Shown here piece after piece: positions 1 to 10,741 of a stretch of DNA of 32,041 nt (positions are counted from its first letter, which is position 1; every line of letters starts with the position of its first letter). Under the pieces are notes generated by a model. The model was not told the DNA's origin. It did not search any database and saw only the letters and a program-made list of their open reading frames with translations. Source of the DNA: an uncultured Planctomycetales bacterium (GTDB lineage: Bacteria; Planctomycetota; Planctomycetia; Pirellulales; Thermoguttaceae); assembly GCA_946541595.1 (NCBI GenBank), contig CAMNJU010000011.1, positions 1 to 32,041 of the forward strand, written 5' to 3'. The position numbers were made by a program, and so were the translations under genes.

Positions 1-577
1 TGATTCCAAGTTCAGGACAGAGCGAGGCGCCGTCGCTCTTCGCCAGCGGCAGGTCCGCGTACCGTACGTCCTTAGGAGGATCGTGTTCTTCCCAAAGGTC
101 GACTGAATTCGGCAGGATACTGAACGAACGCCGAACGATAATCTCGTCAATCTTGTCTTTCGACCCCTTTTGGGGACGGACGAACGCGGAAACCAGAACG
201 ACGCCTTCAAAGGGCGCGGGCGGCGTCCCTTCGACCGTCAACCGCTCGCCCTCGAGTCGGCAGGCAAGTCCCAGCTCTTCAAATCCCTGCGCGTCTTCCA
301 GTACGTACTCGCCTTTGGGGCGGCGTCCGGGGACGTCGAAAAGCCGGAATTCAGCGCGATAAAACTCGCCGACCTTTCCGTTTTTAAACGACATGCCGAC
401 GACCGCTTCGCGAAAGATAACCTCTTCGACTGTGTCGGGCCCGTCGTAAGGAAGGTCAATATACGCAATCTCAATCGTCAAAACGCTTTTAGGCGAATCG
501 GGCCAATCGGCGAGGTTCGGCGCGTCTTTACGCGGCGTCGGCGGCCTCAGATCTTTTTTACCGAAAAAATATCCCAT
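1..577 (-). CDS. Partial CDS (C-terminus off the left edge): N-terminal Ig-like module protein, paralog of the adjacent 934-aa protein
   Basis: Minus frame from ATG at 577 stays open to position 1: MGYFFGKKDLRPPTPRKDAPNLADWPDSPKSVLTIEIAYIDL...KVGEFYRAEFRL...GFEELGLACRLEGERLTVEGTPPAPFEGVV...EEHDPPKDVRYADLPLAKSDG. It shares KVGExYR, GFEELGLxCR, EGTPxxxFxG and HDPPKD with the downstream protein. It is missing from the ORF track because it has no stop inside the window. Confidence 0.8.
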   Translation of the reverse strand, partial: MGYFFGKKDLRPPTPRKDAPNLADWPDSPKSVLTIEIAYIDLPYDGPDTVEEVIFREAVVGMSFKNGKVGEFYRAEFRLFDVPGRRPKGEYVLEDAQGFEELGLACRLEGERLTVEGTPPAPFEGVVLVSAFVRPQKGSKDKIDEIIVRRSFSILPNSVDLWEEHDPPKDVRYADLPLAKSDGASLCPELGI

Positions 578-600: not shown

Positions 601-3405
601 CTACCTAACAATCCTGATTTCAGCCGGCGGGGGCGGCAGTTCCGAGTCGTCGGGCGGCGCCGCGGCCTGCATGCTGTCGCGGGATACGAACGACGAAACC
701 CAGTCCCAAAACTTCGCGAACGAAGCGACGTCCATCGTTCCGAGCGAATAAATCTCGTCGGTAAGGAGCCGCAGCGGCTCGACTTTCGCGCGCGGACCCG
801 CGCAGCACGCGGCGATCCGCGCAAAAGGATACTTCTTAATCGCGTTCGCCGCGCGTTTAAAGAGCAGCGTGTCGGACGGAGCGCCGTCCGTCATAACGAC
901 CAAAATAGGATTCCAATCCCCTCTAACCGACGCCGTCGAAAGCCGAACTTCATTTCTGAGCCGTTCGACAAGCAGCGCGAGCGCTTCTCCGAGATTCGTC
1001 GGCGACGTCTGCGGTACGGAAAGCGAGGGGAGCGTTACTTTGGAAAGCTCCGTCAGGGGCGTGAGGACTCTCGCGTGAAGATCGTACGAAATAATACTCA
1101 GCCAAACTGTTTCCAACGCGTACGGATCGCGGCGGAGGCTCGACAGGAGCGACTGCAGACCGACCTTCACCGCCTCGATCGGCTCGCCGCGCATCGACCC
1201 CGACGTGTCGAGCAATATGTAGACGGGCAATCTGCGCGAGACTGTTTCTTCAACGGCCGCCTGTCCCTGTTCCGGTTCCTCTTCTTCTCCGGCAGATTTC
1301 GAGATTATAAAGGGTTTAGGCGCGATGGGAATTCTGCTCAAGCGCGTCGTCGTTTGAACCGGGACGAGCCCGGCTTCTTCGGGAGGAAGCGCCGTAATAA
1401 AAGACGTGCCCGAAAGTTCCGAATAAATGTGAGCGACGACGTTTATTGAAATCTGACCCTTAAACCACGGTCGGGATTTCCCGGCGCGGTCGACGCTTCT
1501 AATTCTAAGTTTGCCCCCGTCAATTTCGCAGCGGAAACCGTATTGTTTGAAACCGACCGCGTCGAGGAGCGCAAAGTCGGCTCCGCCGACCGTCTTGTCC
1601 GCCAAAGGAAAGGTAAAATCGTAGCGAACGGCCGTCTCACCTTCGTCAAACGACATTTCCTCAATTCGTTTGAGAAAGCGGTTAAACTGAATGAAACCGT
1701 TGTTAGGATCTAAAAACTGAGCTAAAAGGGTGATTTTAAATTTGGCGCGGTAACGCGAAAGGCTGACCGCGGGCTTGGCGTCGCTCTTTTCAACCGCGCG
1801 CGGCGGCGGGGACAGCGCTGAAAAGAGCGGCGTCAGATCGTCGTCGTTCTCCTCGTCTTCCTCGTCAACAAGATCGCTCGGCGTTATCGAGTCGTCCGGT
1901 TCGTCGTCCGCGTCCGAACGCTCCCGCATTAGCGCGTCGTTGACAATCGCAACGAACGCGCGGTCCCCATAGTAGCCCGGTATTTGAAATTCAAGGCCCT
2001 TTAACGCCGCCTCGGCGCGCTCTTCGCAGCTTAGACCCAAGTCAAACGCGCCGGGCGCTAAACTTGGAAACGTCTTTGTCAGAAACTGCTCCCAAAGAGC
2101 GTACTCGTCCGCGAACGATTCGGGCGGAACAAAGGGCGCCAGCAAGCTTTTCGTCGCTAAAAAAATCCCGCCAAACTCCGTCAGAAACGTTATACGGGCG
2201 CGGTGGCGAACCGTCTTCCAAGGCGCGGACTCTTTCTTTATCTCCCAAGACGCGTCGTCGCGCAGATTCTCATCCCCCAATGGGGTAAGCAGAACGACCC
2301 GTGCGGCGTCGTTGGGGCGGTATATCGCCGTAACTCCGTCCCCGGTCCCATAAGAGAGGACGGCCCAAACGTCGGGGCGTTTCCTATTTCCGGAAAAACG
2401 CTTTATCGCGACGCACTGAAGAGAGGCGCGGTAATCGTCGGGATCGCTCTTTCTGGCCTGCGCCTCGGCGGCTATGATCTCGGCTTCCTTGCGCGCCAGT
2501 TTGGAGAAAAGCGAGTCGACTTGACCGCGCAGCGTCTTCCGCTCGACGCGTTCGGGAAAGACGGCGGCGCCGCCGAGTTCGTAAGCTTCTAAAAGAGCGT
2601 TCTCTACCGCGTCGGAAATCTGACAGGACGGGTCGTTCAAACGCGATTCCAGCCCGCGCGTCCACGCGCCGCGGCGAAGATCGGCGCCTTTATGCGCGTA
2701 CTTCGCCGACTCGCAGCCTTCCGCCGCGGCGAAAACATGCCAACCGTCTTCGTCCGCGCCCAGCGCGCAGGCGTAGCCGCTCTTGCAGTACGCGCCAAGA
2801 TGCTCCCGCAGCCGACCGCGTTTGCTCGCGGCTAAAACGGAAAGCGACTGATCGCCGTCGAGAAAGAATCCGTCGGAGCAGTCGTAGGGAATATCGGCGT
2901 AGAGGCCGTCCTTCGGAGGATCGTGTTTTTCCAGCGCTTCGAAAGGAACGGAGGCGATCGAAATAGGGCGGTAAATGGAAAATTCGCCGCTCCTGCCGAG
3001 CGAAGACTCTTCGTAGCCGTAGAACTCAACGCGACCTTTGAACGTTCGCGTCGGCGTCCCTTCAATCAGTAAAGAAGAGTCGTTAATGCGGCATCTTAAC
3101 CCCAACTCTTCAAATCCCGACGACCGTTTTAAATCGAAACCGTCCGCCGAAAGAAGATCGAACCCGTCCGGCGCCAGATTAATTTCAAAACGGTAGGGTT
3201 CGCCAACCTTACCTGTCGGAAACTCTATCCGTAAGATTGAACTGACAAAGGACGGATAATCAAAGTCGAGAACGTTCTGTCTCCCTTCGGACGCGCCGCC
3301 GCGCGACAATTCAATATAAAGCTCGATTCCCTGCAATTCCGCCACACCTTGTCCGAGCGCTTTCCAACGCCTCGCGCCGTCAAAAGTCCAACCCAATAAA
3401 ACCAA
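601..3405 (-). CDS. Multidomain protein: Ig-like / degenerate PP2C-like / Ig-like / C-terminal TerY-type VWA domain
   Basis: 934-aa ORF. C-terminal MIDAS motif LLDTSGSM, TNLGEAL, VVMTDGAPSD. The central region (LSVLAASKRGR...DGWHVFAAAEGCESAKYAHKGADL...VLSYGTGDGVTAIYR...ARITFLTEF...GDRAFVAIV) follows the PP2C order seen in Ter-associated phosphatases. The 5' end is uncertain: the track start is TTG, and GTG at 3345 is an alternative. Confidence 0.85.
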   Translation of the reverse strand: MVLLGWTFDGARRWKALGQGVAELQGIELYIELSRGGASEGRQNVLDFDYPSFVSSILRIEFPTGKVGEPYRFEINLAPDGFDLLSADGFDLKRSSGFEELGLRCRINDSSLLIEGTPTRTFKGRVEFYGYEESSLGRSGEFSIYRPISIASVPFEALEKHDPPKDGLYADIPYDCSDGFFLDGDQSLSVLAASKRGRLREHLGAYCKSGYACALGADEDGWHVFAAAEGCESAKYAHKGADLRRGAWTRGLESRLNDPSCQISDAVENALLEAYELGGAAVFPERVERKTLRGQVDSLFSKLARKEAEIIAAEAQARKSDPDDYRASLQCVAIKRFSGNRKRPDVWAVLSYGTGDGVTAIYRPNDAARVVLLTPLGDENLRDDASWEIKKESAPWKTVRHRARITFLTEFGGIFLATKSLLAPFVPPESFADEYALWEQFLTKTFPSLAPGAFDLGLSCEERAEAALKGLEFQIPGYYGDRAFVAIVNDALMRERSDADDEPDDSITPSDLVDEEDEENDDDLTPLFSALSPPPRAVEKSDAKPAVSLSRYRAKFKITLLAQFLDPNNGFIQFNRFLKRIEEMSFDEGETAVRYDFTFPLADKTVGGADFALLDAVGFKQYGFRCEIDGGKLRIRSVDRAGKSRPWFKGQISINVVAHIYSELSGTSFITALPPEEAGLVPVQTTTRLSRIPIAPKPFIISKSAGEEEEPEQGQAAVEETVSRRLPVYILLDTSGSMRGEPIEAVKVGLQSLLSSLRRDPYALETVWLSIISYDLHARVLTPLTELSKVTLPSLSVPQTSPTNLGEALALLVERLRNEVRLSTASVRGDWNPILVVMTDGAPSDTLLFKRAANAIKKYPFARIAACCAGPRAKVEPLRLLTDEIYSLGTMDVASFAKFWDWVSSFVSRDSMQAAAPPDDSELPPPPAEIRIVR

Positions 3406-3446
3406 CGTCCGCGCCGAGATAAACGGCGCGGACGCGGCGTCGTCCG

Positions 3447-4088
3447 TTACGGTTTAACCAACGTGATCTCCGGCGGAGGCGGGGGCAGCTCGCTCATTCC
3501 GCTGTCGACCTCGCGGCCCGCGTCGACCTTCTTGCTGCTGGTCGAGATGCTCGCGGAAACCCACTTGAAGTACGCGCCGATCGTCGACGCGTCGGCGACG
3601 TCGAGCGTTACGACGTTCTCGGTAATCTTCTGAAGGGTTCCTACGTCCGCGTCGGCGCCCGCCGCGCACGCGACGACCGTGCCCCACTTATACGTCCGGA
3701 ACGTTTCCAGCCCTTTGTCGACGTCGTCGGTCGGGTATCCGTCGGTCATAACAAAAACGAGCGGCTTCCAGTCGCCCTTTTCCTCGGCGGTCGTCTTCTG
3801 AACTTCGGCGTTCGCGCATTCGGTTACCTTTTTAAGAACGCCGCCGAGCGACGTTCCGCCGTTCGCGGAGATCTGCGGCGGCTGGAACATAGCGACCTCT
3901 GTCAGCGGAACTATCTGCTGAACTTCGCTTCCGAACGTAAGAACGCTGATATACGCCGACTCCAGCGCGTAAGGATCCTTGCGGAGCGCGGAGTGCAGAA
4001 TTTGAATGCCGTTTTTAACCGCTTCGATCGGTTCCCCGCTCATCGAGCCGGAAACGTCGAGCAAAAGGTAAACGGGAAGTCTTCTCAT
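3447..4088 (-). CDS. terY: TerY-like VWA domain protein
   Basis: 213 aa, MRRLPVYLLLDVSGSMSGEPIEAVKNG...GGTSLGGVL...FVMTDGYPTDDVDKG; intact MIDAS motif, TerY-type length and layout, Pro-rich tail SELPPPPPEITLVKP. Confidence 0.88.
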   Translation of the reverse strand: MRRLPVYLLLDVSGSMSGEPIEAVKNGIQILHSALRKDPYALESAYISVLTFGSEVQQIVPLTEVAMFQPPQISANGGTSLGGVLKKVTECANAEVQKTTAEEKGDWKPLVFVMTDGYPTDDVDKGLETFRTYKWGTVVACAAGADADVGTLQKITENVVTLDVADASTIGAYFKWVSASISTSSKKVDAGREVDSGMSELPPPPPEITLVKP

Positions 4089-4357: not shown

Positions 4358-4921
4358 CTAACTGCGCTCGACGCCGTAATTGCGCGCGACCGTTCCGAGT
4401 CCGTAACCGAGTCCGGTTCCAAGCGCGCGAAAAACCCACTCGCCGTCGCGACGGCTAAGCTCGCCGAAAATCGCGCTCTGACCGTCGCCTGCGTCCTCAG
4501 GAAGGTCGAACCGGACGAGCTCCTCGTCGGACCGAGCGTCGATAAGCCGTATATACGCTGAGTCGACCTCGCCAAAATCCTGCACGCGCGCCTGAGCGTC
4601 GGATATCGAAACGACAAACGCGATCCGCTCGACGTCTTGCGGCAAGGCGGCTAAATCGACGCAAAACGTCTCCGCTTCGTCTTCCGTATGCCCGACGCGG
4701 CCGCCGCTCATGCGGACGACCGAACCGCACTGCGATTTCGGACGGCCGTAGAAGATAAAATCGGCGTCGCTGCGAACGCGGCGGAACGAATTGAGCAAAA
4801 AAGCGCTCGCGGTAAGGTCGAACTCGACGGCCGCGGGCGCGCGCCACCCGAGCTCGACGTTGACTTGCGTTGCGTCGGAAGGCGTCTCAATATTCTGTCC
4901 CCGGATAAGAGAGACGGCCAT
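4358..4921 (-). CDS. Divergent TerD-family protein
   Basis: Start re-assigned to ATG at 4921 (MAVSLIRGQNIE...). TerD pattern: ELGW...FDLTASAFLLN...DADFIFYG...DVERIAFVVSISDA...VDSAYIRLID...GELSRRDGEWVFRALGTG. Confidence 0.85.
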   Translation of the reverse strand: MAVSLIRGQNIETPSDATQVNVELGWRAPAAVEFDLTASAFLLNSFRRVRSDADFIFYGRPKSQCGSVVRMSGGRVGHTEDEAETFCVDLAALPQDVERIAFVVSISDAQARVQDFGEVDSAYIRLIDARSDEELVRFDLPEDAGDGQSAIFGELSRRDGEWVFRALGTGLGYGLGTVARNYGVERS

Positions 4922-4957
4922 AAACGGCTCCTTCACGTTCTATTTCCACGCGCCGCG

Positions 4958-5524
4958 TTACACAAAACAGCCGAAATGCGCGGCGAGCTCGTTGATTTCG
5001 TAATCGTAACCCTCTCCGATCGCGCGGAATTTCCACGCGCCGTGACGCCGGTAGAGTTCGCCAAAGACGAGCGCCTGATTGATACACGCGTCTTCCGTGA
5101 GTTCGAACCGCGCGATTTCCTCGCCCGTCTTGCCGTCGATAATGCGGATAAACGCGGAGTCGATCATGCCGAAATTCTGACGGCGCTCCTTCGCGCCGTA
5201 AATCGTCACGGCAAAGACGATCCTCTCGACGTCGGCCGGGACTTTCGAGAGGAAGACGCAAATCTTCTCGTCGTCGCCGTCCCCGGCTCCGTCGCAGTTG
5301 TCGCCCATGTGAACGACGGCGCCGCAGGGCGATTGACGCTGATTGAAGTAAATGCAGTCGTCGTTCGAACGAACTTTGCCGTCCGCGTTCAGCAAGAACG
5401 CGCTCGCGTCCAAATCGAAATTGTCGCCGGCGTCGAGACGCGGATTCCAGCCCACGCCGACCGTTACCTGAGTAAGACCGGCGTTCAGCGCCGTCTTCTG
5501 ACCTTTCTCTAGCGATATCGCCAT
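4958..5524 (-). CDS. terD: TerD-family tellurium resistance / stress protein
   Basis: Start re-assigned to ATG at 5524: MAISLEKGQKTAL...GVGWNPR...NFDLDASAFLLNADGKVRSNDDCIYFNQ...HMGDNCDGAGDGDDEKICVFLSKVPADVERIVFAVTIY...DSAFIRIID...LVFGELYRRHGAWKFRAIGEGY. Confidence 0.93.
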   Translation of the reverse strand: MAISLEKGQKTALNAGLTQVTVGVGWNPRLDAGDNFDLDASAFLLNADGKVRSNDDCIYFNQRQSPCGAVVHMGDNCDGAGDGDDEKICVFLSKVPADVERIVFAVTIYGAKERRQNFGMIDSAFIRIIDGKTGEEIARFELTEDACINQALVFGELYRRHGAWKFRAIGEGYDYEINELAAHFGCFV

Positions 5525-5990
5525 CGTTAACCTTTTCAACGCGTTGGGACAACCGCGCGCGGCCGCGTTGCCACACAAATTTTTACCGACTCGACCGCGA
5601 CGCGTCCTCCCTCCCATTATTGTAATTCGGCGAACGCAAAAAGACAAGCGAGTTCACGCAAACAAAATAAATTTCCCACGTTTTCGGGAAACTTGAACTC
5701 AAAAAAAACCGTCGAACCGAAAACAGAACAGCGGCGGAAGTCAGTCCCAAACCGACGTCGCAAAAAGGAAAAACAGAAACTCGCACAGCCGAAAGAAAAA
5801 CTCGACGGAAAGAAAGAAAGAGAAAAAAGCGAAGCGCGCGCCTAGACTGCGAAAGGAGGGAAAAGACAAGGGGGAAACAAGCGGGAAGGGGGGAAAGTCA
5901 CAACCCAAACGCGCGCTTCAAGGGGATTCGGAAATCGCTTTTTTCAAAGCGAGACGCCCGCGCCCAAACGGGAAAACAGGCGCCGTAAGA

Positions 5991-6062
5991 GGCGACCACC
6001 GGATTCGAACCGGTAAATGACGGATTTGCAATCCGTTGCCTTAGCCATTTGGCTAGGTCGCC
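5991..6062 (-). tRNA. tRNA-Cys (anticodon GCA)
   Basis: Minus strand GGCGACCTAGCCAAATGGCTAAGGCAACGGATTGCAAATCCGTCATTTACCGGTTCGAATCCGGTGGTCGCC. 7-bp acceptor stem GGCGACC/GGTCGCC, anticodon stem ACGGA/TCCGT with loop TTGCAAA, T arm CCGGTTCGAATCCGG. Confidence 0.95.
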
Positions 6063-7268: not shown

Positions 7269-9326
7269 ATGAGTTCCGAACAACATTACGACAGGGGTAT
7301 GCTTGAACAAACGAAACAGCAGATTCGCGTTCTCGTTAACGAGATCGCGCAGGTCTCGCGTTCCGACGTCTCTCCCGACGTGTTCCAGGCGGAATTCATG
7401 ACGCGCGTCGTGCGCGCGCTGGGCGCCATCGGCGGCGCGCTCTGGACGACCGACGAGTCCGGACGGCTGACGCTCGGATATCAGGTCAACCTCAAAGAAG
7501 CGAAGCTCCACGAAGACGAGGAAGCGAACAAGACGCACTCGTACCTCCTGTACAACACGCTCCGATCCTCGGAAAACGACCTCATGGTCCCGCCGCACTC
7601 CGGCGGCGAAGGCGCGAACGACGGCGGCAACCCGACCGACTTCCTCATCATCATGGGCGTCATTCAGACGGAGCTCGAAAAGGTCGGCATTGTCGAAGTC
7701 TTTCAGCGGCCCGACTCCAATCCCGCGACGCAGCAGGGCTTCCTCCAGTTCGTCCGGCAGGTTACGCGATACGCGACCGAATACTACAAGAACCGCCAGC
7801 TGAAGAATTTCAGCGACCGGCAAAGTCTCTGGACGCAGCTCGAAGACTTCACGCGCAATATCCACAAGACGCTCGACCTCAAAGAAACGCTCTATACGGT
7901 CGCCAACGAAAGCCGCCGACTCATCGAATGCGACCGCGTTTCGCTCGCCATTATGCGCGGCGGACGCGCGAAAATCGAAGCGGTCAGCGGGCAGGACATG
8001 GTCGATAAACGCTCCGAAACGGTCAAGCTGCTTGGCGACTTGGCGACCGCGGTCGTTAAAGCGAACGAGCCGATGGTCTATTCGGGCGACTCCTCGAACC
8101 TCGCCCCGCAAGTTGAAACGGCTGTGGAAGAGTACGTCGACGCCTCCCACACCAAGACGATCGCCGTATATCCGCTCATTCCGCGCACAATCGACGAAAA
8201 AGACTTCGACGAAACGGAACACGACAAGAAAACCGTAAAGCCGCCGTTCGGAGCGATCGTCGTCGAGCAGATCGAAAACTCGAACGTCTCCGAGCACATG
8301 ATGAAGCGCGTCGAGATCGTCGTCGAGCACGCGCGCGTCGCCGTCGGAAACGCGATCGAGCACAATTCGATCTTTTTAGCGCCACTCTGGCAGGCGATCG
8401 GAAAGTCGAAAGTCCTCACGACCGCGAGAATGCTCCCGAAGACGATCTCCGTCTCGCTCGGTATCCTCGCGGTTATTCTGGCGTTCATTTTCGTTCCGTG
8501 GGACTTCAACATGCACTGCGACGGGTCGCTCGAGCCGGTCGTGCGCCGAAACGTCTTTACGCGCGAGCCGGGCAAGGTCGACGTCCTCAACGTCGAGCAC
8601 GGCCAGCAGGTCAAAGAGGGCGACGTCCTCATGGAGCTCTCGAACAACGAGCTCGAAGCTGAATGGCAGAAGAATTACGGCGAGCTTCAGGAAGTTGAAA
8701 AACAGATCAAGTCTCTGCAGGAACAGAGTTACGACGCGAAAGACGTCGAGCGCACGCGCATCAGCGGGCAGATCGCGCAGTATGAAGAGCGCAGAAAGAC
8801 GCTGGAAATTCAGAAGCAGATTCTCACGCGGCGGCAGGAAGACCTCAAGGTGCGCGCCCCGATCGACGGCGTCGTCATGACGTTCCAGCTCGAAACGACG
8901 CTCAAGAACAGACCGGTGCAGCCCGGGCAAATCCTCATGGAAATCGCCCAGCCCGACGGAAAACTGCAGTTGGAGCTCAATATGCCCGAAAAATACATGG
9001 GGCACATTGAAGATTACCGGCGCGTTATTCAGAAGGACGATCCCAACGAGCCTCTCAAGGTAAAATTCGTCATGACCGTCGATCCGTCGAATTCGCACTT
9101 GGCGACCGTAACTGAAATACACGACCGCGCGGAAAACCGCGGCACGGAAGAGACGACCGTCGAGATTCTCGCCTCGATCGACGACCCGAACGACCTCCCG
9201 GAAGCCGCGTCCGCCGGCATGGGCGTCTCCGCAAAAATATACTGCGGCAAACGGTCGCTCGGATACGTCTGCTTTAACGAACTCGTCGCGTTCCTGCAAA
9301 GGACCGTCTTCTTCTGGTTCCGATAA
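7269..9326 (+). CDS. GAF-domain / transmembrane / HlyD-type membrane fusion protein
   Basis: Start chosen at MSSEQHYDRG (7269) rather than 7209. N-terminal GAF-like region (TLYTVANESRRLIECDRVSLAIMRGG), one TM segment (TISVSLGILAVILAFIFVPW), then lipoyl/HlyD signatures (PGKVDVLNVEHGQQVKEGDVLMEL..., VRAPIDGVVM). Confidence 0.85.
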   Translation: MSSEQHYDRGMLEQTKQQIRVLVNEIAQVSRSDVSPDVFQAEFMTRVVRALGAIGGALWTTDESGRLTLGYQVNLKEAKLHEDEEANKTHSYLLYNTLRSSENDLMVPPHSGGEGANDGGNPTDFLIIMGVIQTELEKVGIVEVFQRPDSNPATQQGFLQFVRQVTRYATEYYKNRQLKNFSDRQSLWTQLEDFTRNIHKTLDLKETLYTVANESRRLIECDRVSLAIMRGGRAKIEAVSGQDMVDKRSETVKLLGDLATAVVKANEPMVYSGDSSNLAPQVETAVEEYVDASHTKTIAVYPLIPRTIDEKDFDETEHDKKTVKPPFGAIVVEQIENSNVSEHMMKRVEIVVEHARVAVGNAIEHNSIFLAPLWQAIGKSKVLTTARMLPKTISVSLGILAVILAFIFVPWDFNMHCDGSLEPVVRRNVFTREPGKVDVLNVEHGQQVKEGDVLMELSNNELEAEWQKNYGELQEVEKQIKSLQEQSYDAKDVERTRISGQIAQYEERRKTLEIQKQILTRRQEDLKVRAPIDGVVMTFQLETTLKNRPVQPGQILMEIAQPDGKLQLELNMPEKYMGHIEDYRRVIQKDDPNEPLKVKFVMTVDPSNSHLATVTEIHDRAENRGTEETTVEILASIDDPNDLPEAASAGMGVSAKIYCGKRSLGYVCFNELVAFLQRTVFFWFR

Positions 9327-9406
9327 TTCGACGCCGCGCCCCGCGCCGCAAGCGCGTGTTAAAACGCTTCGAATAAGCATATAACAAAAAGGATACATGA
9401 GCTGAT

Positions 9407-10741
9407 ATGTCGAAACAAATCGATTGGATCGCGCGCGCCTTCCTCGCGTGCGCTGTTGTCGCGGCGTGCGAACTCGCGTTTGGCCAGGACGATTACGAAA
9501 ACGTCGTTCTCGGAAGGGCCGCCAGTTCGGATTTCGACCAGAACGTTCCCAGTCCGCTCGGTTCGCTCCAAACGCCGGGCAATTCGCCCAGTCTAAACGC
9601 CGCGCCCGCGCCCGACGCCACGATTGAGAGTTCCGCCGTCGCCGCGAGCTCGTCGACGAACGCCGCCGGCGATATCGTCGTGCGCAACGCGAAAGTCGAA
9701 GTCCCCAAGGGCGAAGGGTACGAAGCGCTCATTAGCGCCAACGGCCAAGGGCTCCTCGACGAACTGAGGCTCTATAACGACGACTACGACCTCGGTCAGG
9801 AGCTCCAGAAGCTCTCCGAAAGCATCGCCAAGGAGATCGCGAACGACCAGGCGCAGGATTCCGGAGCGACCGTAAAAGCGCCGGACGAGCCGGAAAGCGC
9901 CGCGGAAACGGAAGCCAACGCGCTCGCGGCCGTCGCAAGGCAGTTTGAGCTCCTGAGCAAATTTGAATTCGCGGAAAAGAACGAAAGCGAACGTCCGCAG
10001 CTAACGCGGGGCATGGTCGTTAAGAAGGGCCAGTATCTCGGCAGACTTCAAGACGACGAGCTCAAGCAAGAATTCGTCGTCGCGCTTCAGGAATTGCTCG
10101 TCGCGCGCAAAGAAGCGGAAAAAACGCTCGAAGTCGACGTCGCGTTCGCAGCCGCAGAAGTCGCCAAAGCGTCCTATCGCCGCGCTACCGCGCTCAATAA
10201 GTCGATGCCCGGCGCTATCTCGCCCGAAGAAATCGACGAAAAGAAATACGACTGGATTCGCGCGAATAAATCGGTCGAAAAGGCCCAGTACGACCTCGAA
10301 GTCAACCGCGAGAAGGTCAAAGTGAGCCTCGCGCGCGCAAACGCCACAATGGTCCAGATCCGCAACCGCAAACTCCGATCCCCGATCGACGGATTCATCG
10401 ACGAAATCTATCAGAACGAAGGACAGTGGGTTCGCGAAGGCGACCAGATTCTTCACATTCTGCGGCTCGATAAAGTCCAGGTTACCGGAACGATCGACGC
10501 GAGTCAGTACGCTCCGGAAGACGTCGACGGCAAAACGATCTTCGTCACGGTGCGCCGGCCCGGCGCCGAACCGGTCGAACTGACCGGCAAGATCGTCTAC
10601 GTGCGCCAGGTAATCGAATCCGGGTGCTACTACTTCTACGCCGACGTGGAAAATAAGACGGTTCGCAATAAAGAGACCGGAAAAGATTATTGGCTCTTGA
10701 ATCCCGGTTCTCTGGTAACCGTAACGATTAAGGCTAAATGA
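9407..10741 (+). CDS. Secreted HlyD-like periplasmic adaptor
   Basis: 444 aa with signal-peptide-like N-terminus (ARAFLACAVVAACELAFGQ), lipoyl half-motif RGMVVKKGQYLGRLQD, coiled-coil hairpin, second half LRSPIDGFIDEIYQNEGQWVREGDQILHI. Confidence 0.85.
   Translation: MSKQIDWIARAFLACAVVAACELAFGQDDYENVVLGRAASSDFDQNVPSPLGSLQTPGNSPSLNAAPAPDATIESSAVAASSSTNAAGDIVVRNAKVEVPKGEGYEALISANGQGLLDELRLYNDDYDLGQELQKLSESIAKEIANDQAQDSGATVKAPDEPESAAETEANALAAVARQFELLSKFEFAEKNESERPQLTRGMVVKKGQYLGRLQDDELKQEFVVALQELLVARKEAEKTLEVDVAFAAAEVAKASYRRATALNKSMPGAISPEEIDEKKYDWIRANKSVEKAQYDLEVNREKVKVSLARANATMVQIRNRKLRSPIDGFIDEIYQNEGQWVREGDQILHILRLDKVQVTGTIDASQYAPEDVDGKTIFVTVRRPGAEPVELTGKIVYVRQVIESGCYYFYADVENKTVRNKETGKDYWLLNPGSLVTVTIKAK

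Follow-up and report, generated by a model that had tools for sequence, protein, structure and literature searches.

An apparent PP2C pseudophosphatase fused to a TerY-type VWA protein in a planctomycete Ter locus

The window analyzed here, a stretch of 32,041 nucleotides from an uncultured planctomycete, encodes a protein in which a PP2C phosphatase domain with a broken metal site is joined to a VWA domain of the TerY type. Loss of catalysis in the fused PP2C domain is strongly supported by comparison with its relatives. The domain has probably been kept as a non-catalytic part of TerY2, a tethered module for docking or phospho-binding, and it is a role in binding that we infer. PP2C pseudophosphatases have been described from eukaryotes, while this putative VWA-fused bacterial case is known from two genomes of gut planctomycetes.

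Results

The fusion gene is part of a minus-strand set of Ter genes. The window corresponds to contig C11 of G000, a fragmented assembly (381 contigs, 89.6% complete). Its sequence-matched relatives at the genus and family level belong to Thermoguttaceae or are other planctomycete MAGs, with rumen and gut as frequent sources. Just upstream of the ter operon is a tRNA-Cys(GCA) gene (5989-6062, minus strand). Then follow, all on the minus strand, two TerD-family genes (4958..5521, profile match E 2.6e-72, and 4358..4936, E 7e-53), the standalone VWA gene TerY1 (3447..4088, found by Pfam profile), the fusion gene (601..3345), and the start of the next gene (2..577). The last was assigned by homology to an active-type phosphatase, PP2C-1, and holds a beta-rich module and the first residues of the PP2C domain before leaving the contig. 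VWA genes on Klebsiella ter plasmids share about 62% identity with TerY1.

The start of the fusion gene had been placed at a TTG codon at 3405 in the first-pass annotation, and the ORF as listed spans 601-3405. The orthologue in G072, another species of the same genus, opens with ATG-AELQGIELYIELARGG (L038:9203) where the window has GTG, so the start is most likely the GTG at 3345, giving a protein of 914 amino acids. Residue numbers below follow the 934-residue reading from 3405. The G072 contig that carries this start (C28, L038:9203-11684) seems chimeric: after the opening codons of the fusion it passes directly into unrelated DNA in which a carbohydrate-kinase-like ORF lies, probably through a binning or assembly error.

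The fusion protein consists of a beta-rich module, the pseudo-PP2C domain, a second beta-rich module, and a TerY2-type VWA domain. The VWA domain (661..1242) matches the Pfam VWA profile at residues 728-865 (E 2.8e-10), and its intact MIDAS (DTSGSM, TNLGEA and MTDGAPSD) lies in the same single ORF, as first described. It is about 68% identical (144/211) to the standalone TerY2 of G060 and 42% identical (87/208) to TerY1; judged by sequence, it is a true TerY2, orthologous to the standalone protein. A standalone TerY2 was not found in the G000 assembly, where the locus is incomplete. The protein ends in the tail LPPPPAEIRIVR (604..639), which is common to most TerY-type VWA proteins.

The central region has the profile and the fold of a PP2C phosphatase, so the alternative that it contains no PP2C domain was rejected. 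This domain (1906..2910, residues 166-500) matches Pfam PP2C_2 at residues 206-370 (E 2.2e-6, 27.8 bits versus a 24-bit cut-off), and both the profile and the fold checks proposed for it gave significant results. The AlphaFold2 model has a pLDDT of 84.1 and a pTM of 0.87. Its top-ranked Foldseek matches in the PDB are all PP2C phosphatases, with a probability of 1.00 and a best E of 6.9e-9; TM-scores against these phosphatases are moderate, at 0.4-0.6. A sequence search of solved structures with the active PP2C family gave no match at E 0.01.

Two copies of the beta-rich module, overlooked earlier, flank the PP2C domain. The N-terminal copy (2911..3333, residues 25-165) is homologous to the module of the next gene (2-577), to the N-termini of other PP2C proteins and to kinase C-termini. 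The second (1270..1800, residues 536-712) is related to the N-terminal module of PP2C-2. In general the module is roughly 130-170 amino acids long, and besides its place in the VWA fusion it forms the N-terminus of the other PP2C proteins here and the C-terminus of the TerY-P kinase; further copies are at L035:1903-2457 and L037:8359-8856. It has no Pfam entry: Pfam matches did not exceed chance, and no fold match reached significance. An AlphaFold model of the second copy (pLDDT 83.8) consists of beta strands and one long helix, and its best Foldseek matches are Ig domains, which are weak and not significant.

The binuclear metal site of the fused PP2C domain is broken. According to a survey of 3,573 bacterial PP2Cs (PMC12088040), motifs 2, 8 and 11 supply the Asp residues of the binuclear metal centre, while the Asp of motif 5 binds the third metal. 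The fused domain was aligned with relatives from the same genus, the same family and other phyla, giving 87 distinct sequences with 82-84 covering each column. These relatives have (R/C)(D/E)D in motif 1, (A/S/G)DG in motif 2, GDG in motif 5, (T/S)DG in motif 8 and DDRT in motif 11. The window has CKS in motif 1 in place of (R/C)DD (2779..2787, residues 207-209), AEG in motif 2 in place of ADG (2716..2724, residues 228-230), TKS in motif 8 in place of TDG (2146..2154, residues 418-420), and GDRA in motif 11 in place of DDRT (1957..1968, residues 480-483). GDG of motif 5 is retained (2335..2343, residues 355-357). Thus the metal-binding Asp residues that an active PP2C carries in motifs 1, 2, 8 and 11 are not intact, while the third-metal Asp stays. 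The G072 orthologue has the same motifs except for DDRA in motif 11.

The substituted acidic motifs are present as the first-pass annotation quoted them, and they do not reflect chance: the catalytic motif columns are essentially invariant among the 87 distinct relatives, and the window and the G072 orthologue alone depart from them. The same annotation held that only a late GDR remained. That GDR belongs to motif 11, where the first metal-binding Asp has become Gly, and the surviving fully conserved Asp is residue 356 in GDG, which that annotation did not list. The idea that degeneration is common in the family was rejected, as none of the 87 other distinct sequences is degenerate. In total 23 of 42 near-invariant columns are changed in the window (8 of 10 acidic ones and 15 of 32 others), and the substrate-side loop EFAGQT, conserved in relatives, has been lost.

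Active PP2C genes accompany the fusion. Together the genes make up a TerY-P triad linked to TerD: the locus has TerY-type VWA proteins with MIDAS, TerD genes, a Ser/Thr-type kinase followed by a zinc ribbon, and an intact PP2C_2 gene, and relatives across phyla have the order TerD, TerD, TerY1, TerY2, PP2C, kinase. Further G000 genes of the locus lie on contig C83, which holds the last part of an active-type PP2C (GNHDDRTLLLVV), two kinases and a TerY_C protein. The adjacent kinases, of 684 and 489 amino acids (L035:406-2460 and 2567-4036), each have a zinc-ribbon-like Cys cluster; a Pkinase match in the locus has an E of 1e-8, and the cluster CSNPRC...CPYC was read in the L035 kinase ORF. Evidence for active PP2Cs in the G000 assembly is confined to the intact motif 11 of PP2C-2 on C83 and the start of PP2C-1. 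In G072 both PP2C-1 and PP2C-2 have intact catalytic residues, and the PP2C-1 orthologue (L006:1-894) has CDD and ADG. With active PP2C paralogues, kinases and TerY_C still present in the locus, the dead copy is a duplicated extra phosphatase. Of the original proposal, the fusion of two triad members and the loss of the phosphatase metal site are both supported, but the triad as a whole still has its phosphatase. A comparison with the PADLOC models of anti-phage defence systems matched no family at E up to 1.

The fusion is one continuous ORF in two separate genomes, G000 and G072, whose copies are 89% identical. When the degenerate sequence or the entire fusion was used to search the family, the order and the phylum, G072 alone was found. 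None of the 86 other PP2C ORFs in 79 loci, some of which repeat genomes already counted, is a PP2C-VWA fusion. The contig scan under-samples degenerate copies because its patterns (YWVGDG and GEFAGQT) came from active-type loops; the scans with the degenerate and whole-fusion queries are free of that bias.

The G072 contigs suggest that the fusion arose through tandem duplication. Contigs C198, C209 and C40 have a 78-base end in common, which points to the order fusion, PP2C-1, module-VWA, PP2C-1 copy, PP2C-2, kinase through the repeat. C209 has the unfused arrangement, with the end of PP2C-1 at 1-666 and a separate module plus VWA gene from 686. Its module is identical to the N-terminal module of PP2C-2 at 151 of 185 positions, and over the DNA from the end of PP2C-1 to the close of the module, C209 and C40 share 90.7% identity. 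The C209 VWA together with the PP2C-1 start is 76% identical to the end of the fusion. In the tree, the degenerate domain groups with the G072 PP2C-1 sequences (SH-aLRT 90), which likewise carry C rather than R in motif 1, and its own branch is long, at 2.3 changes per site. On the simplest reading, a tandem duplication of TerY2, PP2C-1 and the N-terminal module of PP2C-2 would have set the PP2C-2 module ahead of a TerY2 copy, and in one duplicate the boundary between PP2C-1 and module-TerY2 would later have been lost, producing the fusion.

Discussion

The pseudo-PP2C domain is constrained, as a role in binding would require, and such a role is probable. Between the window and its G072 orthologue, Ka/Ks is 0.12 for the N-terminal module, 0.385 for the PP2C domain (95% interval 0.27-0.58), 0.19 for the second module and 0.11 for the VWA domain. 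The value for the adjacent TerD gene, 0.355, is close to that of the PP2C domain, whose interval excludes 1. Thus the pseudo-PP2C is clearly under purifying but relaxed selection and is not a dying gene, an estimate that rests on a single species pair because two genomes carry the fusion. A duplicated PP2C copy has lost its metal centre while keeping its fold, and it makes up the N-terminal part of a TerY-type VWA protein. There it may keep the TerY2 VWA domain near the triad kinase, the active PP2C or a phosphorylated client, or it could compete with the active PP2C for the same phosphosites. Loss of the EFAGQT loop weakens the idea that it still binds the ancestral substrate. The fusion of two operon neighbors suggests that PP2C and TerY2 act together.

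The main rival, which we consider rather unlikely, is that the PP2C domain is a passenger: joined by accident once the tandem duplication had happened, it lost its catalytic site and serves as nothing more than an N-terminal tail. It would be kept folded and in frame by the essential TerY2 VWA domain downstream. This reading would fit the Ka/Ks of the pseudo-PP2C, the highest among the folded domains of the protein, as well as the long branch to the degenerate pair and the loss of structural and loop invariants along with the metal ligands. However, the confidence interval excludes neutrality, and the core strands are conserved, with 9% of strand positions changed between the two species versus 22% of loop positions. 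In addition, the CKS, AEG and TKS substitutions are identical in both species, and the domain has no deletions.

A docking or phospho-binding module might also act through its charge. Speculatively, the lysines that replace Asp in motifs 1 and 8 would make the former metal positions positively charged, and phosphate could be held there without being hydrolyzed. A more specific version, which we regard as improbable, is that the positively charged pocket would be a phosphoserine/phosphothreonine-reading domain in TerY, with which TerY2 would sense the phosphorylation set by its own kinase/phosphatase pair.

We give very little credence to a changed enzyme that keeps one metal site (the motif 5 Asp and motif 2 Glu, with C207 nearby) and whose hydrolase activity is weak or altered. 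Motif 5 does still have its Asp, the motif 2 change is conservative, and the eukaryotic pseudophosphatases TAB1 and PHLPP2 retain a single metal at M2 (PMC12002173). Against this, the changes of DD to KS in motif 1 and of D to K in motif 8 remove ligands and add positive charge at the binuclear site, and PHLPP2, with a milder loss, was inactive in that study (PMC12002173). An artefact of assembly or reading frame, in which two genes were joined wrongly, was rejected as next to impossible: both assemblies are fragmented and near-identical repeats in the locus break contigs, but the same ORF was assembled separately in G072 with many synonymous differences, no breakpoint lies inside the gene, and the domain borders agree between the genomes.

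The fusion resembles known systems in part. The TerY-P triad of Ter systems is composed of a TerY VWA protein, a PP2C and a zinc-ribbon kinase (Anantharaman et al. 2012, as cited in PMC11090510). The window locus has the same components, in the order TerD, TerD, TerY1, TerY2, PP2C, kinase, TerY_C, as does the Klebsiella plasmid ter locus, with the order VWA, TerD, VWA, TerY_C, PP2C, kinase. In the triad PP2C and TerY are normally separate genes, whereas in the window an extra PP2C without a metal site is fused to TerY2. Type III-A CoCoNuT operons (PMC11090510) also contain a TerY-P component that was duplicated and then became degenerate inside the operon. There it is a TerY-like VWA without the MIDAS threonine that degenerates, while in the window the VWA is intact and the phosphatase is degenerate.

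Dead enzyme domains have been given comparable roles elsewhere. TAB1 and PHLPP1/2 (PMC12002173) have a PP2C fold with lost metal ligands and are argued to be binding or scaffold proteins. They differ in being eukaryotic, in having unrelated domain partners and in keeping a single metal at M2, while in the window both motif 1 Asp residues and the motif 8 Asp are replaced. MoxR-vWA ternary systems (PMC7159879) likewise have dead enzyme domains on a vWA protein, proposed to be binding, decoy or dominant-negative modules. In those systems the domains are peptidases, cyclases and others, in contrast to a PP2C in a TerD/TerY locus, and no MoxR ATPase gene was seen within the stretches examined around the fusion locus. 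Neither another bacterial PP2C pseudophosphatase nor another PP2C-VWA fusion was found in the sequence scans or in the open papers searched, and an earlier description may exist. The main text of the survey of 3,573 bacterial PP2Cs (PMC12088040) names neither VWA partners nor inactive members.

The fused protein may be useful in the study of Ter systems. A natural fusion with an inert phosphatase and active copies alongside suggests that PP2C and TerY2 belong to one assembly. We know of no experiment on how TerY, PP2C and the kinase of these systems act on each other. The fused pseudo-PP2C would offer a ready-made reagent resembling a substrate trap.

TerY-type VWA proteins also have a conserved C-terminus. 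The tail LPPPPxEIxLV ends 89 of 115 distinct short VWA ORFs across phyla, and most of those without the exact tail carry near variants; in the window tails of this type are at 604-639 and 3450-3480, both on the minus strand. From its sequence the tail looks like a C-terminal docking motif. Other unusual architectures were seen in related loci. PP2C proteins of about 800 amino acids from the same genus (L056:98-2488 and L055:223-2631) have long extensions and intact catalytic motifs, and the first of them bears the LPPPPxEIxLV tail of TerY-type VWA proteins. In the Ter locus of another family member, an FGE-sulfatase-like domain and a WD40 beta-propeller are the fusion partners of VWA domains (L044:7196-8482 and 8725-10491).
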